From a virus, in IMG/VR virus record IMGVR_UViG_3300030106_004130, positions 1 to 22,043 of that record: a DNA stretch of 22,043 bases. One strand, given 5' to 3'. Position numbers and translations under genes: made by a program. Of this stretch, positions 3,063 to 17,958 are shown one piece after another; within the stretch, counting starts at the first letter, position 1; every line of letters begins with the position of its first letter. The notes under the pieces were generated by a model. It had not been told where the DNA came from. It ran no database searches and saw only the letters and a list, made by a program, of their open reading frames with translations.

Positions 3063-4262
3063 ATGGCTGACAAAACAATTACAGTCACAGTAGGAAGCGG
3101 CACACAATATATCGTTGGCGGAACGGGTAACGTTTATTATTTTGACGGTTCCCAACCAACAAGTAATAAAGTCGATTGGGTTGTTGATGGTACAATAAGA
3201 TTAATTCAATCTGATTCTAGTAATGATAACCATCCGCTTTACATTACAACTAGTTCCAGCACTACTTTATCAACAGGTCAAGCAGCAGTGCAGACCTCAA
3301 ACATATCTTATTATTTAGATGGTGCTTCTAATCAAGCTAGTTATTATAATACCACCACTTTTAACGCTGCTTCAGTTCGATACGTAGAATTTAAATTACC
3401 TACAACTCAAAGTTATTGGTCATGTTGGATTCACGGAATTGGTATGGGTGGTTTTTGGAACGACACTACTACAACATGGGGTGCTTTAAATTGGAGTGAT
3501 GGTGAATGGGGTGAACAAGGTGATGCAACTGTTGCTATATCAAGCAGTTTTAATTTAACAACAGCTCTTAATGCAGCAGATGTTGCAGCAAACCCTTCTC
3601 CAGGTTGGGGTACAGAAGCATGGGGAGAAAACGGTTGGGGTAATGTTTTAGGTGGTACAGAAACTTTACCAACGTTTACAACTCTAAGCACTGCTTTAGG
3701 TACTTTAACTACAGCTGTTGAAACTCCAGTAGTTATAACAGACAGCTTTAATATAACTAGTGCTGTTGGAACAATAGACACTAAATTTGATTTTAATTTA
3801 ACTCTTACTGAAAGTTTATTAGTTTCTACCGCTCAAGGAACGTTAGATGTAAATGATGGATCAGATCAAGATGTTGGTTTAGAAAGCTTTAGTTTAACGA
3901 CAAATGTAGGTGCAATTGCTCCAAGTGACGTTGTAGGATTATCGTTGGATGAGGGCTTAACTACAAGAGTTGGCAATTTATTAGATGAAACAAGAACAGA
4001 CGTACCTATAACGTCCCCTGGTTCTTTAAGCACAACTTTAGGCACTTTAACAGTGCCATCTATGGCTGTAGGTATTACAGATAGCTTTAATTTAACAGGC
4101 ACAGTAGGGTCTATAAGTCCTATAGAACAGACCGTTGGATTAACTGGGCTTGAATTAACAACTGTTGTGGACGCTACACAATTAGCAACTACTGGATATA
4201 CAGATGTTGACATAACTGGAAATACATCTTATACAGACATTAAGCATGTAAATCAGGCGTAG
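3063..4262 (+). CDS. Modular virion protein: cupredoxin-like N-domain, Trp-Gly segment, tandem beta repeats
   Basis: 399 residues, AAGGAG site upstream. Residues 20-130 look cupredoxin-like: a Tyr-rich strand, a VDGTIRLIQSDSSNDNHPLYI block with His57, a YYLDGAS block, then SYWSCWIHGIGMGG, which supplies Cys121, His124 and Met128. The order His...Cys-x2-His-x3-Met is that of type-1 copper ligands; copper binding itself is not shown. Residues 131-197 are a Trp-Gly segment (WNWSDGEWGEQG, GWGTEAWGENGWGN) of a kind I know from marine phage structural proteins. Residues 209-370 hold repeats of about 25-35 residues built on SFNLTTAxGTL. The whole is likely a fibrous virion protein outside the neck. 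A promoter candidate for the next unit lies in its last codons. Confidence 0.65.
   Translation: MADKTITVTVGSGTQYIVGGTGNVYYFDGSQPTSNKVDWVVDGTIRLIQSDSSNDNHPLYITTSSSTTLSTGQAAVQTSNISYYLDGASNQASYYNTTTFNAASVRYVEFKLPTTQSYWSCWIHGIGMGGFWNDTTTTWGALNWSDGEWGEQGDATVAISSSFNLTTALNAADVAANPSPGWGTEAWGENGWGNVLGGTETLPTFTTLSTALGTLTTAVETPVVITDSFNITSAVGTIDTKFDFNLTLTESLLVSTAQGTLDVNDGSDQDVGLESFSLTTNVGAIAPSDVVGLSLDEGLTTRVGNLLDETRTDVPITSPGSLSTTLGTLTVPSMAVGITDSFNLTGTVGSISPIEQTVGLTGLELTTVVDATQLATTGYTDVDITGNTSYTDIKHVNQA
3687..4172 (+). repeat. Tandem degenerate beta repeats in the 3063 gene
   Basis: Residues about 209-370 repeat a short strand motif: LSTALGTL, FNITSAVGTI, LLVSTAQGTL, FSLTTNVGAI, LTTRVGNL, LSTTLGTL, FNLTGTVGSI, LELTTVVDA. 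Linkers vary, and several contain an ITDSF or VGL lead-in. The consensus is [LF]-x-[LS]-T-[TGS]-x-[LVA]-G-[TAS]-[LI]. At DNA level the copies are diverged, so this is an old protein repeat and not a recent tandem duplication. Confidence 0.7.
4207..4235 (+). promoter_or_regulatory. Candidate sigma70-type promoter before the fibre unit
   Basis: TTGACA at 4207-4212 and TATACA at 4230-4235 are separated by 17 bp, inside the last codons of the preceding gene. Transcription would begin near 4242, about 30 bases before the next start codon. The -35 box is perfect and the -10 box matches 4 of 6. TTGACA alone is expected several times by chance in a window of this composition, so spacing and location carry the weight. 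Confidence 0.4.
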
Positions 4263-4270
4263 GAGAAATT

Positions 4271-4897
4271 ATGGCATCAACATATAACTACTTAGGTATA
4301 GAACTTATGGCTACTGGCGAAAACGCTGGTACATGGGGAACAAAAACTAATACAAATTTAAACATTATTCAACAAGCAGCGTCAGGATATCACTCACAAT
4401 CAATAGCTGGTGGTGCTCAAACAACTGCTTTATTAATTACAGATGGAGACTCTACTTCTACAACAGATAGTTTAACTAATGCTGCTAGAAATTTTGTCGT
4501 AGAATTAACAGGAACTATTTCAGGTAATCAAATAGTCACTATTCCAAATGGAGTAGAAAAATTTTATTGTTTTAAAAATTCAACATCGGGTGCATACACA
4601 GTCCAAATTAAAGGCGCAAGTGATTCAGGATCTGGATATACTTTTTCAGCAGTAGATAAAACTAGTGTCCTTTTATATATTAATGGTCAAGACGTAGTAG
4701 CTGTATCAGATGCTACAGAACCTGCAGGTACAACAGGACAGGTTCAAATCAATACTAATGGTTCTTTTGCAGCCGTTTCTGAAGGAACTAGTGGCTTTAT
4801 ATTAACATCAAACGGAACCGGGGCAGCCCCTACCATGCAAGCGAATGCTGGAATTGGGATAGGAAAAGCTATTGCAATGGCAATCGTTTTCGGATAA
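4271..4897 (+). CDS. Tail-fibre-like structural protein
   Basis: 208 residues; TAGGAG precedes the ATG by a few bases. The N-terminus STYNYLGIELMATGENAGTWG, then TKTNTNLNIIQQA, is a recognisable opening of phage fibre-associated proteins, especially in marine myo- and podoviruses. It is followed by NFVVELTGTISGNQIVTIP, EKFYCFKNSTSGAYTVQIKG and a VLLYINGQDVVAVS strand, which make up a beta domain. Residues from about 155 (QVQINTNGSFAAVSEGTSG, then LTSNGTGAAPT) resemble the 'LTSNGxGxAPT' segment common in tail fibres. The end, GIGKAIAMAIVFG, is a hydrophobic tail peptide I have seen at the C-termini of other marine phage proteins. Likely role: part of, or connector for, the receptor-binding apparatus that includes the downstream glycine-rich protein. 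Confidence 0.65.
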   Translation: MASTYNYLGIELMATGENAGTWGTKTNTNLNIIQQAASGYHSQSIAGGAQTTALLITDGDSTSTTDSLTNAARNFVVELTGTISGNQIVTIPNGVEKFYCFKNSTSGAYTVQIKGASDSGSGYTFSAVDKTSVLLYINGQDVVAVSDATEPAGTTGQVQINTNGSFAAVSEGTSGFILTSNGTGAAPTMQANAGIGIGKAIAMAIVFG

Positions 4898-4918
4898 AAA
4901 ACAAAGAGGAAATAAATT

Positions 4919-5308
4919 ATGGCAAATCCAAATATAGTATCAGTAGCAAGTATTTACGGTGAGTCGGTAGGTTGGAATTTAACAAATACTGTATCTACAA
5001 CTTTAATGACCGTTTCTTCTGGTAAACTAATTAAAATTAATAGAATGACAGTTGCAAACGTAGATGGATCAAGTGCAGCTGATGTTACAGTATATATAGA
5101 CACAAGTGTTCAAACATCTTCAGGTGCTACAGTAGCAAGTGGAGCAGCAGATGTTTATTTAGCAAAAACAGTTTCAGTGCCTGCTGATGCAACATTAGTT
5201 TTAGCTGATACACCAATTTATTTAAGAGAAGGTGACGTATTAAAAGGTGGTGCAAGTGCAGCATCAGATCTAGATCTATTCATTTCATATGAAGTACTAG
5301 ACGATTAG
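4919..5308 (+). CDS. Small beta-sandwich virion protein
   Basis: 129 residues, AGAGGA site upstream. No signal peptide or enzyme motif is visible. The sequence alternates strands: TTLMTVSSGKLIKINRMTVANVDGS, VTVYIDTSV, VYLAKTVSVPADATLVLADTPIYLREGDVLKGGA and a final LDLFISYEVLDD. This is the pattern of small phage beta-sandwich proteins that decorate virions or cap fibres. The 111-residue product at 16147 has the same order of strands and a comparable last strand (FDIAISYLNI), so they may be distant relatives. It lies between a fibre-like gene and the large glycine-rich gene in what looks like one transcription unit. Confidence 0.6.
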   Translation: MANPNIVSVASIYGESVGWNLTNTVSTTLMTVSSGKLIKINRMTVANVDGSSAADVTVYIDTSVQTSSGATVASGAADVYLAKTVSVPADATLVLADTPIYLREGDVLKGGASAASDLDLFISYEVLDD

Positions 5309-5323
5309 GAGGTTTTATAGGCT

Positions 5324-8047
5324 ATGTCTAATGGCGGAATTATAGGACCTACACAAACAGTAACCGCAGCTCAAGCGGAAAAGAAAACAATCTTTAAATG
5401 TTCAGGAACATTTACATCGCAACCTGGAACTACTACAGCTAAAGTTTTAGTTGTTGGTGGTGGAGGTGCAGGTGGAAAAACTGGCGGCGGAAACGGCGGC
5501 GGTGGTGGAGGCGGCGGCCTTTTATTGGGTTGTAAAACTATTTCAGGTGGAACATCTTATGCTGTAACAGTCGGAGCAGCAGGACAATATACAGGACCAG
5601 GAGATACAACAGCTGGTGGAAATTCAGTTTTTGATGTTTGCGGAGCAAGTCCAGATGGAGCAGCTACTGCAAATGGTGGTGGTCTTGGTGGTAACAACGA
5701 TAGAAATCAATGTGGTGGTGCTGGAGGATCTGGTGGTGGCGGAGGCGGTGCTGGTAATGATAGTCCAGGTTCTGCTAGTCAATCTCCTTCAGGAGGTTTA
5801 ACAGGTTATGGAAATGCTGGTGGACCAGGAAGTCCAACAGGTACAGACGCTGCAGGTGGTGGAGGCGGTGCTGGTGCAGCAGGTACTGCAGAAAATGCAC
5901 CTAATGCTGGTGGTTGTGCTGGAATAGGTAAAAGTGCATATGACGTAGTTGGAACAGAATTTGGAGAAGCAGGATTTTTTGCTGGTGGTGGATCAGGCGG
6001 AGGTAATGTTACTGGTGCTGGTGGTATGGGTGGTGGAGGATTTGGATCTACACCATGCGTAAGAGCTAACAGCGATGGCGGTAATGTTATAGCTTCATCT
6101 GGAGGTGGAGGCTCAGCAAATGTATATAGTGGTGCTGGTCGTTGTGGTAGTAAGGGTGTTGTAATTGTAAAAGAAGCAGGACAACAAGCTGCAGCTCCAG
6201 GTATTTGGTCAATATGTGAAGTTTATTGTAAAGTAAAATCAGATAATTGGGTAAGTGCAGGACCTGCAGGTGGACCTTTAGATTTCTTTTTAGTAGCTGG
6301 TGGTGGATCAGGTGGTGATGGTGGAACCGGTGAAGCTGGTGGTGGAGGCGGAGCAGGTGGTGTCGTTAAGTCTTATGATAACGTAGATTTTACAAAAGTT
6401 GATGCAACTCCAGGGACTTATTGCGTAACAGTTGGAGCTGGTGGAGTACCAGCAGCATCAGGACCGGGTGGTGGAAACACTGTTGGTGGTTCTGGTGGAA
6501 ATACAATATTTGCATATACATGCACTCACACTGCTTATGGCGGTGGAGGCGGAGCATCCGGTGGATCAGCTGCACCAAAAGCTGGAACAGGTGGTTCTGG
6601 TGGTGGAGGAAACGGACGTTGTGGTCCAGGAACTCCAGGTAACTCAACTGGTCAAGCTGGTAATACACCTGCAATTGCAGGATGTGCTGGAGGACCTCAA
6701 GGAAATACTGGTGGTAATGGAGTTCCACCTTATGGTAACGCTGGTGGTGGAGGTGGTGGAGCTGGTCAAACAGGATCTAATGGACAAAACTCTCCACAAA
6801 ACATGGGTGGAGAAGGTGGTGCAGGAGTTATTTCTGGAGTAAGTGGAAGTGGTAGATTTTATGCTGGTGGCGGCGGTGGTGGAGTTCAAACTACTCCTTC
6901 AGGAACATTAAGTGGTTTAGGTGGTGTAGGTGGTGGTGGTCAAGGTCAAAAAGGCGGACCAAGATGTTCTGGAAACGCAGAAGAAAATACTGGTGGTGGA
7001 GGTGGAGGAAATGCTTCTGGCCCAGGATCAGGAGTTTGTGGTTGTGGTGGTAAAGGTGGTAAAGGAGTAGCTTTCTTTAGAAGTGGTGTAGGCTTAACTG
7101 CAGCACCAGGATGTAATACTTCTTTCTACGATGGTCAACATTGGGTTGCTAAATTTAAAACTACTGGAACTCTTACAGTTGGATCAAGATCTGTACCTTC
7201 TCATTCATTTGATTATTTAGTAGTTGGTGGTGGAGGAGGTGGTGAAACTAACCAAGGAGGAGGTGGTGGAGCTGGTGGTTATCAAACATCTTTTCCAGGT
7301 GGTAAAAAATTATATTTAAATCCAGGATCTAACACAATTCAAGTTGGAGCTGGTGGAGCTGGAGGAAGTTATCCTCAAAATAGTGCAAGTAGTGGTGAAC
7401 CTTCATCAGTAGGATTTATAGAATCTATTGGTGGTGGAAAAGGTGGTGGTAATCCAAGTATTTTTACTGGAAGAGGTGGAACCGGAGGATCTGGAGGTGG
7501 TGGAGGATCAGTATCACCATGTAATGTAAGATATGGTAGAGGACTAGTTGGTTTTGATCAGATTCAAGGAAACCCTGGAGGAAGTGGTCAAGGAAGTCCA
7601 GCTTATGGAGGCGGTGGCGGTGGTGGAGCAAACGCTAGAGGAGGAACCGTTACAAGTTCAAGTGCTGCTGGTGGAGCTGGTGGAGCTGGTAAAACAAATT
7701 GTATAACAGGATCACCTGTTACATACGCTGGTGGTGGAGGCGGTGGAGCTGGAGGTCCGGCACCTGCTGCTGGAGCTGGTGGAGCTGGTGGAGGTGGAGC
7801 TGGAGGAAAAGCTTCAGCTAACGGAACTGCTGGAACTGTAAATACTGGTGGTGGTGGCGGAGGATCAATGTGTGGTCCTGCTGGAGTTGCTGGTGGATCA
7901 GGGATTGTTATTTTAAGAGCACCTGGACCGGCTGGCCCAAGCTATACTGCAGCCCCAGGAACTAACACAAAAACAACATTACCTGCGCCTGCTGGAGGAT
8001 GTACGGTATTGACATTTACTGTAGATGGTACGTTGACAATAAGTTAA
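5324..8047 (+). CDS. Large glycine-rich tail adhesin, three domain copies, cysteine-rich
   Basis: 907 residues; AGGAGG lies upstream of ATG. The N-terminus, SNGGIIGPTQTV, shares the SNGGIIG block with the 8557 product and is a likely attachment peptide. Three glycine-rich domains follow (about 40-285, 318-587, 629-867). Each opens with a hydrophobic strand such as VLVVGGGGAGG or YLVVGGGGGG, has a middle TVG strand and closes with a strand such as VVIVKE or GIVILR. Linkers include GIWSICEVYCKVKSDNW. The C-terminus ends GTLTIS. Such polyglycine proteins form polyglycine-II helix bundles in known phage adhesins (phage S16 gp38), so a receptor-binding tail role is plausible. By my count it has about 21 cysteines, concentrated in the first two domains, and about 16 Pro-Gly pairs. 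It is glycine-rich in a different way from collagen: there is no strict Gly every third residue. Confidence 0.75.
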   Translation: MSNGGIIGPTQTVTAAQAEKKTIFKCSGTFTSQPGTTTAKVLVVGGGGAGGKTGGGNGGGGGGGGLLLGCKTISGGTSYAVTVGAAGQYTGPGDTTAGGNSVFDVCGASPDGAATANGGGLGGNNDRNQCGGAGGSGGGGGGAGNDSPGSASQSPSGGLTGYGNAGGPGSPTGTDAAGGGGGAGAAGTAENAPNAGGCAGIGKSAYDVVGTEFGEAGFFAGGGSGGGNVTGAGGMGGGGFGSTPCVRANSDGGNVIASSGGGGSANVYSGAGRCGSKGVVIVKEAGQQAAAPGIWSICEVYCKVKSDNWVSAGPAGGPLDFFLVAGGGSGGDGGTGEAGGGGGAGGVVKSYDNVDFTKVDATPGTYCVTVGAGGVPAASGPGGGNTVGGSGGNTIFAYTCTHTAYGGGGGASGGSAAPKAGTGGSGGGGNGRCGPGTPGNSTGQAGNTPAIAGCAGGPQGNTGGNGVPPYGNAGGGGGGAGQTGSNGQNSPQNMGGEGGAGVISGVSGSGRFYAGGGGGGVQTTPSGTLSGLGGVGGGGQGQKGGPRCSGNAEENTGGGGGGNASGPGSGVCGCGGKGGKGVAFFRSGVGLTAAPGCNTSFYDGQHWVAKFKTTGTLTVGSRSVPSHSFDYLVVGGGGGGETNQGGGGGAGGYQTSFPGGKKLYLNPGSNTIQVGAGGAGGSYPQNSASSGEPSSVGFIESIGGGKGGGNPSIFTGRGGTGGSGGGGGSVSPCNVRYGRGLVGFDQIQGNPGGSGQGSPAYGGGGGGGANARGGTVTSSSAAGGAGGAGKTNCITGSPVTYAGGGGGGAGGPAPAAGAGGAGGGGAGGKASANGTAGTVNTGGGGGGSMCGPAGVAGGSGIVILRAPGPAGPSYTAAPGTNTKTTLPAPAGGCTVLTFTVDGTLTIS

Positions 8048-8078: not shown

Positions 8079-8543
8079 ATGGCACACTTTGCAGAATTAA
8101 ATGGATCTAATCAAGTAGTTAGAGTCGTAGTTGTTGGCAATGATATTGCAACAGCAGATGGGCCTTTAGGAAATAATGATATGCATGTTGATGGAGAAAC
8201 ATGGTGTAAAGACTTTTTTAAAGGTGGTACTTGGAAGCAAACTTCATACAATAATAATTTTAGAAAACAATACGCTGGAATAGGTTATACCTATGATGCA
8301 GTGAAAGATAAATTTATTTGTCCACAACCTTATAGTTCATGGTCTTTAGATGAAAATGATGATTGGCAAGCGCCAGTTGCAAGACCAAACACTAGAGGTG
8401 ACGATGCAGATAATCCAAAAATAGAACAATGGGATGATGTAAACCAACAATGGACTGCAGAAACTCATTGGAATTCAGAAACAAATCAATATGACCAAAA
8501 TTGGGTCTGGGATACGTCAACATTAGCTTGGGTATCCGCATAA
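8079..8543 (+). CDS. Tail-associated protein with Trp-rich C-terminus
   Basis: 154 residues with a strong AAGGAGG site. It opens MAHFAELNGSNQVVRVVVVGND, has a central CKDFFKGGTWKQTSYNNNFRKQYAGIGYTYD and KDKFICPQPYSSWSLDENDDWQAPVARP, then repeats of W-x(2-5)-D spacing (EQWDDVNQQWTAETHW, WVWDTSTLAW). The RKQYAGIGYTYD...FIxPQPYxSW series is one I recognise from proteins encoded next to tail-fibre genes in marine myoviruses and related phages; its role is unknown. Its position between the two large glycine-rich genes fits an assembly partner or tip component of the fibres. No enzymatic motif is seen. Confidence 0.65.
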   Translation: MAHFAELNGSNQVVRVVVVGNDIATADGPLGNNDMHVDGETWCKDFFKGGTWKQTSYNNNFRKQYAGIGYTYDAVKDKFICPQPYSSWSLDENDDWQAPVARPNTRGDDADNPKIEQWDDVNQQWTAETHWNSETNQYDQNWVWDTSTLAWVSA

Positions 8544-8556
8544 GGAGAACTAAGTT

Positions 8557-10395
8557 ATGGCCAGATCAAATGGCGGTATAATCGGAAAAAAGAACCCAAC
8601 CTCTTTTGGTAAATGTACCGTTACATCTAAAACATCCTCAGGAAATGTTACAACAGACTCAGGAACTAGACTTATAGATACTCTTATAGTTGCTGGTGGT
8701 GGAGGTGGTGGTAAAGGAACTGGTGCTGGTGGTGGCGGCGGTGGATATAGACAAATTTCATGTATTAGTGTTTGTGGATCAACTGCTTATGCAGTCACTG
8801 TTGGAGGTGGTGGAGCTGGAGCAGGACCTACTAGAGGTCAAGGTAGTCAAGGTATTGGTTCAGTATTTAATCCAAGTGGTTCAGAAGGAATATCAAAATT
8901 TACAACAACTGGTGGTGGAGGTGGAGGTGGACAACCTCCAAATGGACCTGTCGATGGTGCACCAGGTGGTTCAGGTGGAGGAGCGGCTAATAATGGAGCA
9001 CCTACTGGATCAATTGGAACAGGAAATACTCCCCCATTTAGCCCATCACAGGGAAATAATGGAGGAGCTACTGTTGCTGAAAGAGGTTCTGGTGGTGGAG
9101 GAGGCGCAGGAGCTGTTGGAGTAGATGGCACTGGTGGAGCTTCTTCTTCAGATGGATCAGGCGGAGCAGGTGGTGCTGGTTCAACAAGTAATATTACAGG
9201 ATCTTGTGTAACTTACGCTGGCGGTGGCGGTGGAGGTCATCACAATAATGGTGGTCAAGGAGCAGGTGGATCTGGCGGCGGTGGAGCTGCATCTAAAACA
9301 GGTGCTGGGACAGCAGGAGGCACTAACACTGGAGGTGGTGGTGGCGGAGCTTCTGATTATCCATCCCCTGGTAATGGTGGTGCAGGTGGTCCAGGAATCG
9401 TAGTCATAAAAGAATTAACAAAAGCAAGTGGTGTGTGGTCAATGCAAAGTCAATTTCAAGCTAAGAAAGAAGGGTCATGGCCAAGCTTAGTACAAACATA
9501 TAGTTTAGATTATTTAGTAGTAGCTGGTGGTGGAGCAGGTGGATATTTCAAAGGTGGTGGAGGTGGAGCAGGAGGTTTTAGAACTTCCGAAGGAAGCCCT
9601 GCCCCTATAAATGGGTGTACCATGACTTTTACCAATGTAGCTGTTGGATCAACTTATGATGTAACAGTTGGTGGTGGAGGAACAGCTACGCCAACTCCAA
9701 GCCCTCAAGCTGCTGGCGCTGGAACTAATTCAGTATTTAACCCAGGTGGTTCAGAAGACACTACAATGATTACATCGTCTGGTGGTGGATATGGTGGTAA
9801 CCAATCTGCTCCAGGTACTCCTCCGGGATCAGGGGGATCAGGAGGATCAGGAGGTGGTGCTTCTGATACAACTTCAGGACCTCATGTAGGATCAGGAAAT
9901 ACTCCTCCTCAAACAAAACAACAAGGTAACCCTGGTGGTGTAGGACGAGCAAGTCCTCCGTCTGCTGGTGGTGGTGGAGGTGGTGCCGGCGGTGCTGGTA
10001 GTGGTGCTCCTGGAAATGGTGGAGCCGGTGGTGTAGGATTAGAAAATGATATTACAGGATCTCCAGTTTTCTATGCTGGAGGTGGTGGTGGATCTGGAAA
10101 TGGAACTGGTGGTGCTGGCGGAAACGGTGGTGGTGGAGCAGGAGGAAATGCTCCTAATGGTGCTGGAACACCAGGTACTTCAAACACTGGCGGTGGTGGA
10201 GGTGGTGGTGCGCCTGCAGCAACTCCTCCGGGACCAGGATCAGGTGGGGGTAATGGTGGCCCAGGAATTATTGTTCTTAGAGGACCAAGTGCACTTACAT
10301 TTAGTGTAACACCTGGAACTAACTCAACTTCAACTCACCCAGGTGGTGACAAATTAGCTACATTTACAGTTACTGGAACATTGACAGTCGAATAA
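8557..10395 (+). CDS. Second glycine-rich tail adhesin, two domain copies
   Basis: 612 residues; AAGGAG precedes ATG. It begins ARSNGGIIGKKNPTSFGKC, sharing SNGGIIG with the 5324 product. Two glycine-rich domains (about 38-288 and 317-577) carry parallel blocks: TLIVAGGGGGG / YLVVAGGGAGG, a TVGGGG strand, SVFNPxGSE, a GNTPPxxPxQGN turn, ITGSxVxYAGGGGG, NTGGGGGGA and a closing GIVVIK / GIIVLR strand. The linker GVWSMQSQFQAKKEGSWPS separates them, and the end is VTGTLTVE. The same order of blocks in both copies indicates internal duplication. It has about 5 cysteines, far fewer than its paralogue, but also many X-Pro-Gly sites. A receptor-binding tail role is inferred, possibly as an alternative or companion adhesin. 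Confidence 0.75.
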   Translation: MARSNGGIIGKKNPTSFGKCTVTSKTSSGNVTTDSGTRLIDTLIVAGGGGGGKGTGAGGGGGGYRQISCISVCGSTAYAVTVGGGGAGAGPTRGQGSQGIGSVFNPSGSEGISKFTTTGGGGGGGQPPNGPVDGAPGGSGGGAANNGAPTGSIGTGNTPPFSPSQGNNGGATVAERGSGGGGGAGAVGVDGTGGASSSDGSGGAGGAGSTSNITGSCVTYAGGGGGGHHNNGGQGAGGSGGGGAASKTGAGTAGGTNTGGGGGGASDYPSPGNGGAGGPGIVVIKELTKASGVWSMQSQFQAKKEGSWPSLVQTYSLDYLVVAGGGAGGYFKGGGGGAGGFRTSEGSPAPINGCTMTFTNVAVGSTYDVTVGGGGTATPTPSPQAAGAGTNSVFNPGGSEDTTMITSSGGGYGGNQSAPGTPPGSGGSGGSGGGASDTTSGPHVGSGNTPPQTKQQGNPGGVGRASPPSAGGGGGGAGGAGSGAPGNGGAGGVGLENDITGSPVFYAGGGGGSGNGTGGAGGNGGGGAGGNAPNGAGTPGTSNTGGGGGGGAPAATPPGPGSGGGNGGPGIIVLRGPSALTFSVTPGTNSTSTHPGGDKLATFTVTGTLTVE

Positions 10396-10408
10396 GAAAT
10401 GTTATAGT
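10381..10408 (+). promoter_or_regulatory. Candidate extended -10 promoter before the oxygenase cassette
   Basis: TTGACA at 10381-10386, a 16-bp spacer, then TATAGT at 10403-10408 preceded by TGT, giving an extended -10 (TGTTATAGT). The -35 box is inside the last GTLTVE codons of the glycine-rich gene. Transcription would begin near 10415, leaving only about ten bases before the ATG at 10425 and no clear Shine-Dalgarno site. This suggests weak or nearly leaderless translation of the first oxygenase from this transcript. Confidence 0.55.
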
Positions 10409-10424
10409 AAGTTCATAAAGACAT

Positions 10425-11051
10425 ATGAACTTATTTAATTATTATTGGTATTTTCAATCAGCAATTCCTCATAGAGTATGTGATGATATTGTTCGTTATG
10501 GAAAACAATTAGCTGATCAAATGGCTGTTACTGGTGGATATGGTGATCCTACAAAATTAAATAAAAAAGAAATACAAGATTTAAAAAAGAAAAGAGATTC
10601 TAATATTGTGTGGATGAGCGATAGATGGATATACAGAGAAATACAACCATATGTAAATAGAGCTAATAATGATGCTGGTTGGAATTTTCAATGGGACTGG
10701 TCTGAACCATGTCAGTTTACTAAATACACTAAAGGCCAATATTATGATTGGCATTGTGATTCATGGGAACACGCATACGATAAACCAAACACAGCATCAC
10801 ATGGTAAAACAAGAAAACTGTCTGTAACAGTAACTTTATCAGATCCAAAAGAATATAAAGGTGGTGAATTAGAATTTGATTTTAGAAATCAAGAACCTAA
10901 TAAAAAACCTAACATTAGGAAATGCACAGAAATATTACCTAAAGGTTCTTTAGTAGTATTCCCATCACATGTATGGCACAGAGTCTGTCCTGTTAAAAAA
11001 GGATCAAGATATAGTTTAGTAATATGGAACCTAGGATGGCCGTTTCAATGA
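10425..11051 (+). CDS. 2-oxoglutarate/Fe(II) dioxygenase, prolyl hydroxylase-like
   Basis: 208 residues. Members of this superfamily use Fe(II), O2 and 2-oxoglutarate to hydroxylate a substrate, releasing succinate and CO2. The double-stranded beta-helix core is visible: FTKYTKGQYYDWHCD gives the HxD pair His110/Asp112, then KLSVTVTLSDPKEYKGGELEF, then LPKGSLVVFPSHVWHRV with distal His185, then SRYSLVIWNLGW with Arg195, the likely 2-oxoglutarate carboxylate binder. This set fits PKHD/P4H-like enzymes and is complete, so activity is plausible. The substrate cannot be read from sequence. It is first in a three-gene oxygenase cassette just after two adhesin genes, which suggests a virion or host-surface protein as substrate. 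An alternative is modification of nucleic acid or a small molecule. Confidence 0.85.
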   Translation: MNLFNYYWYFQSAIPHRVCDDIVRYGKQLADQMAVTGGYGDPTKLNKKEIQDLKKKRDSNIVWMSDRWIYREIQPYVNRANNDAGWNFQWDWSEPCQFTKYTKGQYYDWHCDSWEHAYDKPNTASHGKTRKLSVTVTLSDPKEYKGGELEFDFRNQEPNKKPNIRKCTEILPKGSLVVFPSHVWHRVCPVKKGSRYSLVIWNLGWPFQ

Positions 11052-11755
11052 AAAAAAATAAAAAACAAAAAGATAAATTAATGTATCCTAAAGAATTAAA
11101 TAAGGATGAATTATTTAAATGTCCTGTGTGGTATGCAGATGAACCACAATTTGTAAATACATTAAATAAAGCATCAGACAAATATATTGAAGAATCTAAA
11201 AAAAATTTAAAAAAATCTATAGATGAACGTAATAAAAAATTTGGTAATAAAGGAGATATGGGTCACGTTTTTCACTCAACAACTTTATTAGGTGATCCTA
11301 ATTTTACAGAACTTACAAACTACATAGGAGCTACCGCACATAATTTATTAATTGAAATGGGTTTTGATTTAAGTAATTATCAAGTGTTTACTACAGAAAT
11401 GTGGGTACAAGAATTTGCTAAAAAGGGTGGAGGACATCACACATTACACACACATTGGAATGGTCATATATCTGGTTTTTATTTTTTAAAAGCTAATGAT
11501 GCAACATCTAGACCAATATTTGAAGACCCTAGAGCAGGAAATGTAATGAATCTTTTACCAGAAAAAGATAGATCAAAAGTAACATATGCATCCTCACAAA
11601 TTAATTATGAGGTTAAACCAGGAAGAATGATATTCTTTCCCTCTTACATGCCACATCAATATATGGTAGATATGGGATATGAACCATTTAGGTTTATACA
11701 TTGGAATTGTCAGGCTATACCGAAAGGAGTATTAAATGTCGTTCAAAAAAAATAA
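11048..11755 (+). CDS. 2-oxoglutarate/Fe(II) dioxygenase-family protein (TIGR02466-like)
   Basis: 235 residues from the ATG at 11048, chosen because it overlaps the previous stop as ATGA, with AGGA eleven bases upstream. An in-frame ATG at 11024 would add eight residues and overlap more deeply. The N-terminal 60 residues are Lys-rich and helical. The core has FTTEMWVQEFAKKGG, then a HHTLHTHWNGHISGFYFL strand (His134 and His136 are candidate metal ligands, with the SGFYFL strand following). Next comes VKPGRMIFFPSYMPHQY with distal His203, then FRFIHWN with Arg215. This arrangement matches the family of putative phage and bacterial 2OG-Fe(II) oxygenases of unknown substrate. The first ligand pair is H-x-H in place of H-x-D, as I recall for that family. 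It belongs to the same operon as its neighbours. Confidence 0.75.
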   Translation: MKKNKKQKDKLMYPKELNKDELFKCPVWYADEPQFVNTLNKASDKYIEESKKNLKKSIDERNKKFGNKGDMGHVFHSTTLLGDPNFTELTNYIGATAHNLLIEMGFDLSNYQVFTTEMWVQEFAKKGGGHHTLHTHWNGHISGFYFLKANDATSRPIFEDPRAGNVMNLLPEKDRSKVTYASSQINYEVKPGRMIFFPSYMPHQYMVDMGYEPFRFIHWNCQAIPKGVLNVVQKK

Positions 11756-12377
11756 ATATCAAGTTTTAAAAAAAACTATAAGTAAAGAGTTAGCAGATTT
11801 TTGTTATGCTTACTTTTTAAACAAAAGAAAGGTAGCACGATTTTTATTTGATGAAAAATATATATCTCCATTTACTGAATATTTTGGAATATGGAGTGAT
11901 CCCCAAGTTCCCAATACTTATTCTCATTACGCTGACATAGTAATGGAAACTTTATTACAAAAAGTAAAACCTGTAATGGAAAAAAATACAGGGTTAAAAT
12001 TATCTGAAACATATTCTTATGCAAGAATTTACAAAAAAGGAGATATACTAGCTAGACATAAAGATAGATTTAGTTGTGAAATATCTACTACATTAAATTT
12101 AGGTGGAGATCCATGGCCTATATATTTAGATCCTACTGGTAAAATAAGTCAAGCTGGTATTAAAGTAGAATTAGATCCAGGAGACATGTTAATATATTCT
12201 GGATGTGATCTTGAACATTGGAGAGAAGAATTTATAGGTAAAGATTGTGCTCAAGTTTTTTTACACTACAATAAAAAAGGTTCTAAATCAGCAAAAGAAA
12301 ACGAGTTTGATACAAGACCGTTTTTAGGTTTACCTGGTTATTACAAAGGTGCAAAGTTGACAAAACCTAAGAAATAG
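11736..12377 (+). CDS. 2-oxoglutarate/Fe(II) dioxygenase, phage P4H-like
   Basis: 213 residues. Its start lies 20 bases inside the previous gene, with AAGGAG just upstream of ATG. The core reads SYARIYKKGDILARHKDRFSCE with His108/Asp110 as the HxD pair, ISTTLNLGGDPWPIYLD, then VELDPGDMLIYSGCDLEHWREEF with distal His161, then CAQVFLHYNKKG. This succession is that of phage-encoded prolyl 4-hydroxylase-like proteins. The basic residue expected after the distal His is less obvious than in the first cassette member (Lys169 is a candidate). The C-terminus is short and basic (GAKLTKPKK). The three cassette proteins differ in length and motif spacing, so they are separate subfamilies and not a recent triplication. 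The substrate is unknown. Confidence 0.8.
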   Translation: MSFKKNKYQVLKKTISKELADFCYAYFLNKRKVARFLFDEKYISPFTEYFGIWSDPQVPNTYSHYADIVMETLLQKVKPVMEKNTGLKLSETYSYARIYKKGDILARHKDRFSCEISTTLNLGGDPWPIYLDPTGKISQAGIKVELDPGDMLIYSGCDLEHWREEFIGKDCAQVFLHYNKKGSKSAKENEFDTRPFLGLPGYYKGAKLTKPKK

Positions 12378-12483: not shown

Positions 12484-14658
12484 ATGTTACAAAAATTAGG
12501 TTTTCTACCAGGATTTAATAAACAAGTCACAGAAACCGGGGCCGAGGGGCAATGGTTTGATGGTGATAATGTAAGATTTAGATATGGTACACCAGAAAAA
12601 ATAGGCGGTTGGAGACAACTGGGAGCAGATAAACTTACAGGAGCAGCTCGAGCTCTTCATCATTGGGATGATAATGCTGGTATTAAATACGCAGCAATAG
12701 GCACAAATAGAATTTTATATGTATATTCTGGAGGAGTGTATTATGATATTCACCCTATTAGAACAACACTTTCTGCAACAGCGTTTCAAACAACTAATAA
12801 TTCTAAAACAATTACGGTAACTTTTAGCACAGCCCACGGGTTACAAGATAACGATATAATTATGTTCGATAGTGTAACAGGATGGGCTAACTCTACATTT
12901 ACAAACGCTACCTTTGAAGATCAAAAATTTATGGTAACTACAGCACCTACGGCTAATACCATAACAATTACTATGGCTGAGGTAGAACAACAAGCTTCTC
13001 AAAATCCTGTAACAGGAGCAAGTGCTTCTTGTTTAGCTTACTATACAGTAGGTCCTGCTCAACAAGTTGGTGGTTTTGGATGGGGTACTGGACTGTGGTC
13101 TGGTACAGTTTCTGGTCCTGTAACTAACTCATTAAGCACAGGTATCAATGACTCTGTAACAGTTATACCTTTAAACTCTACAAATGGTTTTCCTTCAACA
13201 GGAACAGTTAGAATAGGAACAGAAGATATTTCTTACACTTCTATTAATGGTAACAATTTAGAAGGAGCAACAAGAGAAGTAAATGGCACAACTAAAGACG
13301 CCCATCTTAGCGGAGCTGTAGTAACTAATATAACTGATTATGTTGGATGGGGAGAAGCCTCTTCGGATGACTTTACAATTGATCCGGGTTTATGGGTTTT
13401 TGACAACTATGGCACAAAATTAATTGCACTTATTTATAATGGTAATTGTTTTGAATGGGATGCAGCTGCAACTAATGCAACAGCAACTAGAGCTACTTTA
13501 ATTGCTAATGCACCTACAGCATCACGTCATGTGTTAGTATCTACACCGGATAGACACTTAGTGTTTTTTGGAACTGAAACTACCGTTGGAGATCAATCAA
13601 CCCAAGACGATATGTTTATTAGATTTTCTGATCAAGAAAATATTGATGGAACAGACGCTTATACTGTTAAAGCAGACAATACGGCAGGAACACAAAGACT
13701 AGCTGCAGGTTCTAAAATTATGGGAGCTATTAAAGGTAGGGACGCAATCTACGTTTGGACTGATACTTCTTTATTTTTAATGCAGTTTGTAGGTCAACCA
13801 TTTACATTTTCTTTTTCACAAGTTGGTACCAACTGTGGATTACTCGGTAAGAATGCGTGTGTTGAAGTTGATGGCACAGCGTATTGGATGTCAGAAAACG
13901 GATTTTTTACTTACGATGGTCAATTAAAATCTATGCCATGTCTTGTAGAAGATTTTGTTTACGATAGTTTAAACAGCACACCAAGAGATTTAATTTTTGC
14001 AGGTGTTAATAACTTGTTTGGTGAAGTTACTTGGTTTTATCCTAATGGTGGATCAGATGTAGTTAATAGATCAGTTACATATAATTATTTAGATTCTTCT
14101 GTTAGACGTCCTATATGGACTACAGGAAGTTTAGCTAGAACAACGTGGCAGGATTCTGCAGTGTTTGCTAAACCTCATGCAACTTATTATAATAAAAGTG
14201 ATAATGCTTCTTTTGATGTTACAGGTAACACGGATGGTAGCACGATATACTATGAACAGGAATCAGGGACCGATCAAATCGATGCAGGTGGAAGCACAAC
14301 ATTAATAACTGGAACAATTACGTCTGGAGATTTTGATATTACACAGCGAAGAAGTAATACAGGACAAACGGTAGGAATGCCTGACATTAGAGGAGACGGA
14401 GAATTTATAATGAGAATTAGTAGAATTATACCAGATTTTATTTCTCAAACAGGAAATACACAAGTTAGTTTTATAACTAGAGATTATCCAAATAATTCTG
14501 CAACTACTACAAACTTTACAACAACTACAAGCACTGATAAAATTGACACAAGACTACGAGCTAGATCAATTGCTATGAAAGTATCAAATACAGCAGTAGC
14601 AGAAGATTGGAAACTAGGAACATTTAGGTTGGACATACATCCTGGAGGTAGAAGATAA
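12484..14658 (+). CDS. Large tail nozzle/hub-like structural protein
   Basis: 724 residues with only a weak AGG site before ATG. The N-terminus has KLGFLPGFNKQVTETGAEG, QWFDGDNVRFRYGTPEKIGGW and RALHHWDDNAGIKYAAIGT, a series I recognise from marine phage proteins at the position of tail hub or nozzle proteins (P22 gp10 / T7 gp12 type). Inserted beta modules follow: an HGL-x2-ND-x-I module near residue 118 and the third copy of the shared beta insert at 214-283. The second half has repeated blade-like blocks (HVLVSTPDRHLVFFGTE, DMFIRFSDQENID, GRDAIYVWTDTSLFLMQF, GTAYWMSENGFFTYDG), consistent with a beta-propeller. The C-terminus (KVSNTAVAEDWKLGTFRLDIHPGG) also fits such proteins. It likely forms the lower tail tube. 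The functional call is from layout; no search was possible. Confidence 0.65.
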   Translation: MLQKLGFLPGFNKQVTETGAEGQWFDGDNVRFRYGTPEKIGGWRQLGADKLTGAARALHHWDDNAGIKYAAIGTNRILYVYSGGVYYDIHPIRTTLSATAFQTTNNSKTITVTFSTAHGLQDNDIIMFDSVTGWANSTFTNATFEDQKFMVTTAPTANTITITMAEVEQQASQNPVTGASASCLAYYTVGPAQQVGGFGWGTGLWSGTVSGPVTNSLSTGINDSVTVIPLNSTNGFPSTGTVRIGTEDISYTSINGNNLEGATREVNGTTKDAHLSGAVVTNITDYVGWGEASSDDFTIDPGLWVFDNYGTKLIALIYNGNCFEWDAAATNATATRATLIANAPTASRHVLVSTPDRHLVFFGTETTVGDQSTQDDMFIRFSDQENIDGTDAYTVKADNTAGTQRLAAGSKIMGAIKGRDAIYVWTDTSLFLMQFVGQPFTFSFSQVGTNCGLLGKNACVEVDGTAYWMSENGFFTYDGQLKSMPCLVEDFVYDSLNSTPRDLIFAGVNNLFGEVTWFYPNGGSDVVNRSVTYNYLDSSVRRPIWTTGSLARTTWQDSAVFAKPHATYYNKSDNASFDVTGNTDGSTIYYEQESGTDQIDAGGSTTLITGTITSGDFDITQRRSNTGQTVGMPDIRGDGEFIMRISRIIPDFISQTGNTQVSFITRDYPNNSATTTNFTTTTSTDKIDTRLRARSIAMKVSNTAVAEDWKLGTFRLDIHPGGRR
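13123..13332 (+). repeat. Inserted beta domain, copy 3 (protein level)
   Basis: Residues 214-283 of the 12484 gene product: TNSLSTGINDSVTVIPL, FPSTGTVRIGTEDISYTSING, then REVNGTTKDAHLSG. It closely parallels residues 92-157 of the 80 gene product (SGT-x-x-IGTE-[ED]-I-[TS]-YT, VNGTT). Its boundary lies between a WGTGLWSG segment and a DYVGWGEASSDD segment, as expected for a domain inserted in a larger fold. Confidence 0.65.
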
Positions 14659-15983
14659 TGTCATTATTTTATACTGGAAGAGATTTAGAAACTTACAATA
14701 AAGGTTATAAATTTGTACCTCAAGAAAAATATTTAAAAAACCCTTTTAATTTTCCTAATCTTGAAACCAAAAGTTCTACAACTAATGTAGCTAGTGCTCC
14801 AGTTACGTATAATTATCAAACTGGTCAATCAGGAATAGTCCCTGGATCAACTAATAGTTTAGTAGATGATTTTAATTTAGCCATTACTGAAAGACAAAAA
14901 AGAATTAATGAAGCTAATAGACCTTTAAGACCCGCACAGTTTCCAAGTTTTCCGGGAGTTAGTAATGCTCAAACAATGTATAATAAAGCTGCTGCTAATT
15001 TTGCTAAAGACCCAAATTCTTTAACTGAAACTTTTACAGGAATGAGGCCATCTAAACAAGTTATGGATCACTATAACGAACAGATAATGGACTATCAAGA
15101 AAAAGTTAGAACAGGACAATTTGGTCCAAGTTTTATACCAGCAGAAAAACCTACAATAGGTAGAAAAATTTCTGATTTTGTATATGACAATGTGCCATTT
15201 ATAGACAGACCTCAATCTGCTACAGATATTTTACAATATGGTTATAAAGAACCAAGTTTTACAATGCCTGGAATTACAGGTATTTTATCTCAACTAGGTC
15301 TACGAACTTATTCTGGTTTACCAAGAGGACAACAAGCCTTTATTGCATCTAGAACAGGATATCAAGGACCAACTATATTTGGAGATAATTTAGGAAATCA
15401 AGATCCGTTTGGAATTAACGTGCAATCTATGTTTGGAAACTATGCAGACTACAGTAGAAAAGAAGCAGCAAGATTAGAAGAACAACTTGAAAAATCAAAA
15501 GATAAGTGGGAAGACACATATGGTAGTTTAGATACAACTAATCAGTATGGAAAAACTTGGGAAGAAATGAACAAGTTAAACATAACAAAATCAAATTTCT
15601 ACAATCAAAACGTGGTTGATTTAGACAACTATGTAGCTGATGCAAATTTAATAGATAAAGCTAGAAAAGAAGAAATTAGACAAGCCCAAGGAAATATCGA
15701 TAGACGTGAAACGGCTATCAATAGAGCATCAGAAAGAGGGCAAGCCATAAACAAAGACGAAGGAGTGGGTTCTGTTAATCCTAATTCAGCTTATGGTAAA
15801 GCACAAGGTTACAAAGGAGGACATGCTAATCCGCATACTCAAACAGGTTGGAGTGGAGCAACTAAAAGCAATGAAAGCACTGGTAAAGGAAAGGGTAAAA
15901 GTAGAGGAAGAGATCCTGACGATAGAATGGCAAGTGGTGGAAGAGTAGGTTATTTTTATGGAGGACTAGCAAGTATATTATAA
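14658..15983 (+). CDS. Probable internal virion/ejection protein ending in a GGRVGYFYGGL motif
   Basis: 441 residues, no known enzyme motif. The start overlaps the previous stop (TAATG). The N-terminal third is Pro/Asn/Thr-rich with little predicted order (RLLD-poor, e.g. PLRPAQFPSFPGVSNAQ). The centre includes RKISDFVYDNVPFIDRP and a LPRGQQAFIASRTGYQGP segment. Residues about 265-292 form a charged helical, possibly coiled-coil stretch (SRKEAARLEEQLEKSKDKWE). The tail is Gly/Lys-rich and basic (KGKGKSRGRDPDDR) and ends MASGGRVGYFYGGLASIL. Terminal GGR-[VI]-GY-x-x-GG peptides recur among proteins of this block and, from memory, in many marine phage genomes. An internal core or DNA-ejection role is inferred from position after the hub gene; a scaffold-like role is an alternative. 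Confidence 0.55.
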   Translation: MSLFYTGRDLETYNKGYKFVPQEKYLKNPFNFPNLETKSSTTNVASAPVTYNYQTGQSGIVPGSTNSLVDDFNLAITERQKRINEANRPLRPAQFPSFPGVSNAQTMYNKAAANFAKDPNSLTETFTGMRPSKQVMDHYNEQIMDYQEKVRTGQFGPSFIPAEKPTIGRKISDFVYDNVPFIDRPQSATDILQYGYKEPSFTMPGITGILSQLGLRTYSGLPRGQQAFIASRTGYQGPTIFGDNLGNQDPFGINVQSMFGNYADYSRKEAARLEEQLEKSKDKWEDTYGSLDTTNQYGKTWEEMNKLNITKSNFYNQNVVDLDNYVADANLIDKARKEEIRQAQGNIDRRETAINRASERGQAINKDEGVGSVNPNSAYGKAQGYKGGHANPHTQTGWSGATKSNESTGKGKGKSRGRDPDDRMASGGRVGYFYGGLASIL

Positions 15984-16147
15984 TGGCAAGAATTGTACAA
16001 TCATTAACAAGAGCAAGTAAAGAATATGAAGAAAGAACTTTTCAATCTTTAGTTAGAGATCTTGACTCTGTTATACAAAAATTAAACACATCTTTTCAAG
16101 ATGAGGTTAAACAGGAGATAGAAGCTAAAAGTTTCTTTTTAGAATAA
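15983..16147 (+). CDS. Small helical protein (54 residues)
   Basis: The frame starts with the ATG overlapping the preceding TAA (TAATG, 15981-15985) and ends with a TAA overlapping the next ATG (16145-16149). The product begins MARIVQSLTRASKEYEERTF, continues QSLVRDLDSVIQKLNTSFQ and ends EAKSFFLE. It is almost wholly amphipathic helix with a heptad-like run of hydrophobic residues (V, L, Y, F, L, L, V, L), so a short coiled coil is likely. I recall similar 50-60 residue proteins at this position in marine phages, of unknown role. Its perfect fit between two overlapping genes makes it a convincing gene despite its size. Confidence 0.8.
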   Translation: MARIVQSLTRASKEYEERTFQSLVRDLDSVIQKLNTSFQDEVKQEIEAKSFFLE

Positions 16148-16482
16148 TGGCAGTAATAAACGAATATAAATTTAAAGGTATAGACAATAGCACAACAGGA
16201 GGAGCTTTAGTTCCTTTAGGTGCAGGAATACCTGGAGTTAATGAAACTATAATTATTAAGTCTCTTTTAGTAACATCTGCTGGTACACCTGTTGTTACGG
16301 TCATTAACAATAGTATTACAGCAATTAAATCTAAAGCTTTAACAGCTAATGAAACTACAGAACTTTTAACTCAACCGTTAATAGTAGAAGGTGGCACATC
16401 TTTTACAGTCCAAGCAAGCACTGCAGACTCATTTGATATAGCCATCAGTTATTTAAACATTAAAAAGGAGAAAACAGACTAA
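16147..16482 (+). CDS. Small beta-rich virion protein
   Basis: 111 residues, coupled on both sides by TAATG overlaps. The strand series ETIIIKSLLVTSAG, PVVTVINNSI, TELLTQPLIVEGGTSFTVQAST and SFDIAISYLNIKKE gives a compact all-beta protein. The strand order and the ISY motif near the end resemble the 129-residue product at 4919. It contains no cysteines and no catalytic motif. Its context among hub and internal protein genes suggests a minor virion component or an assembly factor. Confidence 0.6.
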   Translation: MAVINEYKFKGIDNSTTGGALVPLGAGIPGVNETIIIKSLLVTSAGTPVVTVINNSITAIKSKALTANETTELLTQPLIVEGGTSFTVQASTADSFDIAISYLNIKKEKTD

Positions 16483-16682
16483 TGAAAACTACAAAAATAG
16501 ATGGTCAAGAAGTACCTGTATTAGAAGCTACAGAAGTGATTACTACTTACAGGCATAAAGTAACAAATGAGGTTTTTAAGGACCAAAAATCATGGGAAGC
16601 TAAAGGTTATAAGCCAGAGGAAATGGCACAAGACGTAAAAGTCATCATGCCTAACCTTGATTTATTAGGAGAAACAAAGTAA
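16482..16682 (+). CDS. Hypothetical protein (66 residues)
   Basis: Third small gene in the coupled run; its ATG overlaps the preceding TAA. The product MKTTKIDGQEVPVLEATEVI, then TTYRHKVTNEVFKDQKSWEAKGY, then EEMAQDVKVIMPNLDLLGE has a beta hairpin-like middle around Y-x-HKVTNEVF and an acidic helical end. I do not recognise the family. Phage proteins with a 'hKvt.ev..d..eW.akG' stretch of this kind occur in structural clusters with unknown function. Confidence 0.6.
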   Translation: MKTTKIDGQEVPVLEATEVITTYRHKVTNEVFKDQKSWEAKGYKPEEMAQDVKVIMPNLDLLGETK

Positions 16683-16704
16683 AACGAGAGATTAAGGTAA
16701 AATT

Positions 16705-17958
16705 ATGGCAATATCTAGAATGCAAGAACCCAGACAATTACAAGCCGGTGGTGGAATCATAACATTACAAGAGCCAAGACAAGGTTATTTTGTAGGTAAA
16801 CTGGTTAAAAAAGCTGTCCGTGGTGTAAAGAAAATTGCTAAAAGTCCTATTGGAAAATTAGCTTTACTTGGTGGTGGAGCTTATTTAGCTGGAGGCGCTT
16901 TAGGTGGCGGCGGAGGTCTAGGTAATTTTACTAAATTATTTAGTTCTGCAAGAGGTTTATTTGATAAAGGTAGATTATTATCACCGCTAGTTAGAAATAA
17001 AGCAGGAGAATTTAGTTTAGGCCGAGCAGCATTAACAGGTTTAGCAGGCACAGCTATTGCAGCACCATTTTTAATGGGTGGTGATGATGATGAGGAAGAA
17101 GAAGTAACAGATGTTATGGATGTACAAGCAGTAAGAGATGCTGCAAGAAACTATTATAGAAACCCAGGTGCACCAACTGATTTAGCATTTATGCCACAGA
17201 AAAAATATGTAATGGAAAATTTTTATGCAGCTGATGGCGGCCGTGCAGGTTATGCTGACGGTATGATGGTAGAAGAAGATGATGAAGAAGAATTTATAAG
17301 AACAGGGGCAGGTATGTCTAGAAGACAACCTAAAACATTTTTAAATATGGGTGGTGGCGCAGGTCAAGCTCAAGCAGAACAGGTGCTTATGGCAGAATAT
17401 GTTAAATATAAAAATAGAGGTGGAGACATGTCTTTTGAACAATTTGTAAAAGCAGTAATGCAAGCATCAGAGCAACCAGAAGGTATGGGTATGGAACAAC
17501 CACAACCAGTTATGATGGCGGCAAATGGTGGATTAATGACTGCAGTGCCAGGTTACACGACTCCAGAAGGTTATAACAAATTTGATTATCCAAGCGGTGG
17601 TAAAAAAGTTAGAGTTGGTAAACAAGAAGGTGGAATCATGGAAACAGAAGAAGCATCAGAAATGATTGACATGGGTGGTTTAGAAAAAGATTATAGAAAT
17701 ACTGGTGGTTTTGTAGAAATGGGCGGCAAAGAAAGAGCTGACGATGTTCCGGCAAGGCTATCTAAAAATGAATTTGTATTTACAGCAGATGCTGTTAGAA
17801 ATGCAGGAGGCGGCGATATAGATAAAGGCGCTGAAGTCATGGAAAATTTAATGAATAATTTAGAACAAGGTGGTGAAGTTTCTGAAGATTCACAAGGCTT
17901 AGAAGGAGCACAAGCAATGTATGATCAAATGCAACAATTAGAATCAAGGATGATATAA
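16705..17958 (+). CDS. Motif-rich probable internal virion protein with hydrophobic segments and DDVPARLS block
   Basis: 417 residues; a weak AAGG site precedes ATG. Order of features: EPRQLQAGGGIITLQEPRQGYF (8-29, two EPRQ motifs); a basic amphipathic stretch GKLVKKAVRGVKKIAKSPIGK (31-51); glycine-alanine hydrophobic segments at about 50-70 and 108-126 that could enter a membrane; an acidic run (GGDDDEEEE); DGGRAGYADGMM (178-188); a helical middle with QAQAEQVLMAEYVKYKNRGG; GGFVEMGGKE; and RADDVPARLSKNEFVFTADAVRNAGGG (345-370). The last block resembles the 'D-x-VPA-x-L-x-x-x-E-[FY]-V' motif seen in tape-measure and internal proteins of many phages. Membrane-active segments plus position suggest a DNA-ejection protein; this is inference. 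Confidence 0.6.
   Translation: MAISRMQEPRQLQAGGGIITLQEPRQGYFVGKLVKKAVRGVKKIAKSPIGKLALLGGGAYLAGGALGGGGGLGNFTKLFSSARGLFDKGRLLSPLVRNKAGEFSLGRAALTGLAGTAIAAPFLMGGDDDEEEEVTDVMDVQAVRDAARNYYRNPGAPTDLAFMPQKKYVMENFYAADGGRAGYADGMMVEEDDEEEFIRTGAGMSRRQPKTFLNMGGGAGQAQAEQVLMAEYVKYKNRGGDMSFEQFVKAVMQASEQPEGMGMEQPQPVMMAANGGLMTAVPGYTTPEGYNKFDYPSGGKKVRVGKQEGGIMETEEASEMIDMGGLEKDYRNTGGFVEMGGKERADDVPARLSKNEFVFTADAVRNAGGGDIDKGAEVMENLMNNLEQGGEVSEDSQGLEGAQAMYDQMQQLESRMI

Follow-up and report, generated by a model that had tools for sequence, protein, structure and literature searches.

The stretch of DNA analysed here, hereafter the window, is the 22,043-nt IMG/VR record IMGVR_UViG_3300030106_004130, in which two genes for glycine-rich tail proteins are followed by three genes (ox1, ox2, and ox3) for 2-oxoglutarate (2OG)-Fe(II) oxygenases, all genes discussed lying on the + strand (Table 1). 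Because its closest named relatives are the Pelagibacter phages HTVC033P and HTVC023P, the window phage probably infects SAR11. Across related phages, the region behind the glycine-rich adhesin genes is a hypervariable island rich in such enzymes, oxygenase and adhesin genes are neighbours more often than expected by chance, and adhesin alleles and enzymes change jointly. This coupling favours the adhesin as the candidate substrate, and we consider it somewhat better than an even bet that the cassette represents one form of an island whose tailoring enzymes modify the tail adhesin.

Table 1 Features of the adhesin-oxygenase locus in the window
Feature	Position	Strand	Matches and remarks
Small virion-type gene, left edge of variable region	4919..5308	+	Retained upstream of Gly-rich genes in related loci; phrog_1276 match weak
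Gly-rich tail protein 1, 907 aa, three Gly_rich_2 stretches	5324..8047	+	PF21722 7.7e-38; phrog_2295 1e-91
Small conserved companion between the two adhesins	8079..8543	+	phrog_7759
Gly-rich tail protein 2, 612 aa, candidate substrate	8557..10395	+	PF21722 3e-34; phrog_2295
Promoter-like site just before the oxygenase genes, TTGACA-16-TATAGT with TG	10381..10408	+	11/12 matches
ox1, P4H/PKHD-like 2OG oxygenase, HxD...H...R	10425..11051	+	PF13640 8e-19
ox2, TIGR02466/PF13759-type oxygenase, HxH...H...R	11024..11755	+	PF13759 3e-14; TIGR02466 above its cut-off
ox3, 2OG-oxygenase fold, HxD...H, Gln replacing the usual Arg/Lys	11736..12377	+	phrog_2954 1.6e-50
Conserved virion structural gene, right edge of island	12484..14658	+	phrog_3287 6.6e-93; served as anchor

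Three oxygenases, one of them labelled a ferrochelatase

An original prediction, made from the sequence alone, had described three consecutive overlapping genes of the 2OG-Fe(II) type, and this description is borne out by the metal triads, the family matches, and the predicted fold of ox3. The overlaps measure 28 bp (ox1/ox2) and 20 bp (ox2/ox3). Residues H110-x-D112, H185, and R195 of ox1 are invariant across 43 homologs, and the corresponding residues of ox2 are H142-x-H144, H211, and R223, so that both proteins combine the metal triad and the 2OG-binding Arg/Lys of the superfamily with a family profile. Profile matches (1.5e-12 to 9e-6) relate ox1 to the solved enzymes PiuC, the prolyl 4-hydroxylase (P4H) 5c5t, and the Chlamydomonas-type P4H 2jig, thus to PKHD enzymes and to viral and algal P4H, while the solved relatives of ox2 (3bvc and 2rg4) are both uncharacterised.

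Sequence searches were less informative for ox3, which matched neither a Pfam family (E 0.1) nor an NCBIfam family (0.01) and for which no solved relative was found. Its AlphaFold2 (AF2) model (predicted local distance difference test, pLDDT, 94) nevertheless shows a prolyl-hydroxylase-type 2OG-oxygenase fold, for which the best Foldseek and VIA-align matches are P. putida P4H (the EF-Tu prolyl hydroxylase; Foldseek E = 1.6e-9), PHD2, and SnoN, with Z about 16. Model and alignment together give ox3 the double-stranded beta-helix and the HxD...H triad of the superfamily, H108-x-D110 and H161 being invariant across 45 homologs. Where other members of the superfamily usually have the Arg/Lys that binds 2OG, ox3 has an invariant Gln (Q173); the likewise invariant R97 or R163 could contact the 2OG carboxylate instead. 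The proposed relationship to prolyl hydroxylases therefore holds for two of the enzymes, ox1 by these profile matches and ox3 by its fold matches to the EF-Tu P4H and PHD2. P4H-type enzymes are known protein hydroxylases.

Both PHROGs and deposited phage genomes label ox3 a ferrochelatase, an identity supported neither by a domain match nor by the fold matches, which are 2OG oxygenases. This points to an annotation error in the phage "ferrochelatase" family that includes ox3 and that is cited for iron/haem metabolism, given the 2OG-oxygenase fold. The PHROG labels "DNA endonuclease V", "minor coat protein", and "ferrochelatase" all sit on island proteins with a 2OG-oxygenase triad and for this reason look wrong for these proteins, and such mislabelling of phage oxygenases is likely widespread.

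Glycine-rich tail adhesins

The two glycine-rich proteins predicted ahead of the oxygenases were likewise recovered, the first lying upstream of the segment on which the prediction was made. Both exceed the PF21722 cut-off of 24.3 by a wide margin (131 and 119 bits) and contain 34% Gly. The AF2 model of protein 2 (mean pLDDT 84) consists mostly of non-regular structure and most closely resembles, among solved folds, the cyanophage Pam3 fiber (7ypx, E 8e-5) and the Bxb1 tail tip (9d93, E 3e-4). These matches support a tail role for protein 2, and the domain score and tail-fibre type fold together mark a Gly_rich_2 tail adhesin, which we infer to be of the polyglycine-II type.

A hypervariable enzyme island behind the adhesin

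When the loci of related phages were aligned on the downstream virion gene (phrog_3287), the stretch between adhesin and anchor proved hypervariable, with 116 protein clusters at 40% identity. Most of this diversity falls within a single superfamily: in one alignment of 110 island representatives (≥130 aa), 93 had the complete iron triad and 99 an Arg or Lys at the 2OG position. Searching the first 385 sequences with an oxygenase-core profile retrieved 1114 open reading frames (ORFs), while reversed decoys gave none at the same threshold. Across 86 distinct complete loci, islands held between 0 and 11 oxygenases, and 78 loci combined adhesin and oxygenase, with adhesin only in three, oxygenase only in three, and neither in two. 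Taken alone, this 86-locus table is biased, part of the loci having been fetched with ox2 or ox3 as the query; the loci fetched via the neutral anchor give the same picture.

Pfam matches in the islands also include tryptophan halogenase, carbamoyltransferase, sulfotransferase, methyltransferase, JmjC, and WelO5-like families. Halogenases and carbamoyl-, sulfo-, and methyltransferases lie amid the oxygenases, for instance at 3862-5397 in locus L130, 3974-6830 in L146, and 6623-8101 in L147. Among the island families found with Pfam, no scaffold-building pathway or sugar biosynthesis genes stood out, and tailoring enzymes without such a pathway make a ribosomally produced substrate the simplest one. 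Island architecture varies further: oxygenase cassettes are inverted relative to the flanking virion genes in L123, L144, and L152, and in L129, L132, and L370 four to five oxygenases, of a distinct ox1/ox2 subtype, accompany non-Gly-rich genes of 325-600 aa at the adhesin position.

Oxygenases and glycine-rich genes are neighbours beyond chance

The survey of oxygenase and Gly-rich tail gene co-occurrence called for by the original prediction yielded an excess over random expectation in three sets of genomes. Among 16 named phages holding both, which take in T4-like cyanophages, pelagimyophages, and podovirus-like pelagiphages, 13 of 17 Gly-rich clusters had an oxygenase within 3 kb, against 3.7 expected when positions were shifted within genomes (0/5000 shifts reached the observed value); without the nearest relatives of the window, the count was 10 against 2.95. 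On long IMG/VR contigs, 24 of 32 oxygenases lay within 3 kb of Gly-rich genes (6.5 expected). In an independent set of single-oxygenase records with a Gly-rich domain, reached via the companion gene of other phages, the pair lay within 1.2 kb in nine of 11 cases (1.7 expected). In HTVC033P, HTVC023P, and 023Pt_psg01, all oxygenases of the genome are found in or beside the adhesin locus. Since the named phages were mostly reached through oxygenase or companion-gene matches, and records are mutually related, the associated P values overstate significance to an unknown extent, and more weight attaches to the agreement of separate genome sets.

Adhesin and enzymes change together

In phages of the HTVC023P type there is a second, minimal module made up of one Gly-rich gene and one TIGR02466 oxygenase; in the HTVC023P pair of locus L083, the adhesin spans 15338-16264 and the oxygenase 16277-16951. 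All 29 loci with adhesin allele A have the oxygenase, and the five loci that carry allele B or lack the adhesin do not. In the anchor-gene phylogeny, three independent adhesin/oxygenase switches were concordant (3/3), a number at which a sign test cannot reach significance. More broadly, adhesin similarity tracks the similarity of enzyme sets when both flanking genes are controlled for (partial Mantel 0.29, n = 47, and 0.70, n = 22).

Proline as a possible target

The original prediction had pointed to roughly thirty X-Pro-Gly sites, the type recognised by collagen prolyl hydroxylases. The count itself stands, with 16 Pro-Gly in protein 1 (which has 47 Pro) and 14 in protein 2, i.e., 30; the implied enrichment does not, composition leading one to expect 16.1 and 14.1 (shuffle P = 0.58 and 0.57). 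The window adhesins have short Gly-X-Y runs only and no long collagen-type tracts, and with Pro-Gly at chance level they do not show the features of a collagen-type substrate. A rise of Pro-Gly with oxygenase number was discarded (Spearman -0.49, tied to adhesin length).

A broader signal for proline weakened in new loci. Among the 22 phages compared first, the window being one of them, adhesins near oxygenases contained 5.6% Pro against 2.73% in others (p = 2.5e-5), and Pro alone of the 20 amino acids clearly separated the two groups, other ORFs being equal; the window adhesins have 5.2% and 6.9%. In 238 new loci, the values were 3.24% and 2.55% (p = 2e-7 at 80% dereplication), with no significant excess at 60% clustering (p = 0.50) or for ox1/ox3-type neighbours (p = 0.95). 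We regard the Pro excess as weak because it shrank in the new loci and vanished both at coarse clustering and for these neighbours. In adhesins of the minimal module, the clean single-oxygenase case, Pro makes up about 1.9% of residues and the median Pro-Gly count is one; since they are nearly Pro-free, any action of their enzyme on the adhesin would probably target another residue. The collagen-type argument is thus not supported, and Pro is a plausible target of ox1 and ox3 in window-like and cyanophage loci rather than a general rule. Comparing alleles with and without an oxygenase did not single out a target residue, as they differ almost everywhere. Separately, L521, L534, L537, and L557 carry a distinct Gly-rich protein cluster with 6-17% Pro and no oxygenase nearby.

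Neighbouring features of the locus

The companion gene between the two adhesins (phrog_7759) occurs beside Gly-rich genes in many marine phages, including phages without oxygenases, and possibly encodes a tail fibre partner or chaperone. As for the promoter-like site ahead of ox1, a stricter version of the pattern was found at eight of 19 related adhesin-ox1 junctions against three of 827 other gene starts, and the oxygenase genes may have their own promoter there. This assignment is tentative because the -35 element overlaps codons of the conserved adhesin C-terminus.

A proposed tailoring island for the adhesin, and its alternatives

Under the proposed mechanism, the enzymes, for the most part small oxygenases of the Fe(II)/2OG type, would work in the infected cell on newly made Gly-rich adhesins encoded just upstream, and selected side chains would be hydroxylated or otherwise oxidised before the adhesin is built into the virion, presumably altering its binding or stability. 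Joint swapping of adhesin and enzymes would then diversify the chemistry of the receptor-binding surface. A bolder version, which we consider less likely than not, is that exchangeable sets of up to 11 oxygenases together with halogenases and carbamoyl-, sulfo-, and methyltransferases diversify the receptor-binding adhesin combinatorially, adhesin and enzymes evolving as matched sets.

Several observations weigh against adhesin tailoring. Neighbourhood and joint change would equally arise if adhesin and enzymes were merely exchanged by recombination as a single block. Many phages encode Gly-rich tail proteins yet lack an oxygenase, so the fold does not depend on modification. Conversely, L129, L132, and L370 hold several oxygenases with other large genes in place of a Gly-rich adhesin, and in the named phages, where large genomes carry many oxygenases, 97 of 129 lie beyond 3 kb of adhesins. 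The pelagimyophages HTVC008M (W04) and Mosig (W15) have about 12-22 oxygenase matches genome-wide, some of them beside terminase and neck genes.

Molecules of the host surface, or a small molecule, could instead be the substrate, with the enzymes lying beside the adhesin because the two deal with one receptor, altered for instance to exclude other phages. For cyanophage clusters that combine carbamoyltransferase, halogenase, and 2OG oxygenases, Iyer et al. 2021 (PMC7824862) proposed decoration of secondary metabolites or capsules, the same enzyme kinds are present in the islands, and joint change of adhesin and enzymes would be predicted here as well. We nonetheless find this explanation unlikely, given that the island families showed no conspicuous genes for sugar or scaffold biosynthesis, that several phages have one oxygenase and nothing else, and that enzymes hydroxylating protein residues are among the solved relatives of ox1 and ox3. 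Slightly less probable still is a role in host takeover or metabolism, in which the oxygenases would lower or use cellular 2OG, as suggested by the proposal of Sullivan et al. 2010 (PMC3037559) that 2OG levels are controlled, or modify host EF-Tu or ribosomal proteins. The EF-Tu prolyl hydroxylase is indeed among the closest folds to ox3, and in cyanophages many oxygenases are encoded at other genomic sites, but a metabolic role leaves unexplained why the sole oxygenases of small genomes sit in the adhesin locus, why the enzymes are so extremely diverse, and why they change with the adhesin. The least probable of the three is a merely permissive insertion site at a recombination-prone adhesin locus, with coupling by linkage among enzymes of varied, unconnected roles, since despite the inverted cassettes and the Fe(II)-dependent oxygenases found with tail fibre genes in metaviromic islands (Mizuno et al. 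2014, PMC3909814), about 85% of the cargo (93/110) belongs to one superfamily, unlike random cargo, and single-oxygenase phages with the gene beside the adhesin go unexplained.

Adhesin tailoring, if true, would add chemical modification of adhesins to the means of phage-host competition. Few unexplained genes are as common in marine phages as those for 2OG oxygenases, which have hitherto been read as metabolic; with a candidate substrate encoded beside them, their role becomes directly testable in culturable pelagiphages.

Comparison with known systems

The closest known arrangements are those of HTVC033P (76-82% identity) and HTVC023P (49-62%), where the gene order Gly-rich, companion, ox1, ox2, ox3 is the same as in the window; in HTVC033P, gp62 and gp64 are the Gly-rich proteins. 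The 023P-type genome paper (PMC9599517) reported co-located 2OG oxygenases and "ferrochelatases" and suggested a partnership; in the part of that paper considered here, the oxygenases are not tied to Gly-rich genes, and the family of the third gene is taken for ferrochelatase. Similar to the window locus, metaviromic islands are variable host-recognition regions with tail fibres and Fe(II)-dependent oxygenases, for which Mizuno et al. 2014 inferred a function in host recognition; the portion of their paper drawn on here differs from the present analysis in having no adhesin-enzyme module, joint change, or enzyme survey. A literature search found no report of hydroxylated phage tail fibres, and a Baltic study mentions viral P4H and collagen tail fibres. 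Among cellular enzymes, the P. putida P4H acting on EF-Tu (4iw3) and the PKHD enzyme PiuC (9ghl) have the fold and metal triad in common with the window enzymes; these are host enzymes with 12-14% identity to ox3, and the likeness shown is one of fold and triad. Virus-encoded oxygenases for a virus's own structural proteins, as proposed here, have precedents in the mimivirus collagen lysyl hydroxylase (PMC5802723, PMC9546862) and in the PBCV-1 P4H (Eriksson 1999, cited in PMC9301287). Whereas those are single enzymes of eukaryotic giant viruses with collagen or proline-repeat substrates, the window and its relatives would extend the principle to phages, with Gly_rich_2 domains as the candidate substrates and whole sets of enzymes.

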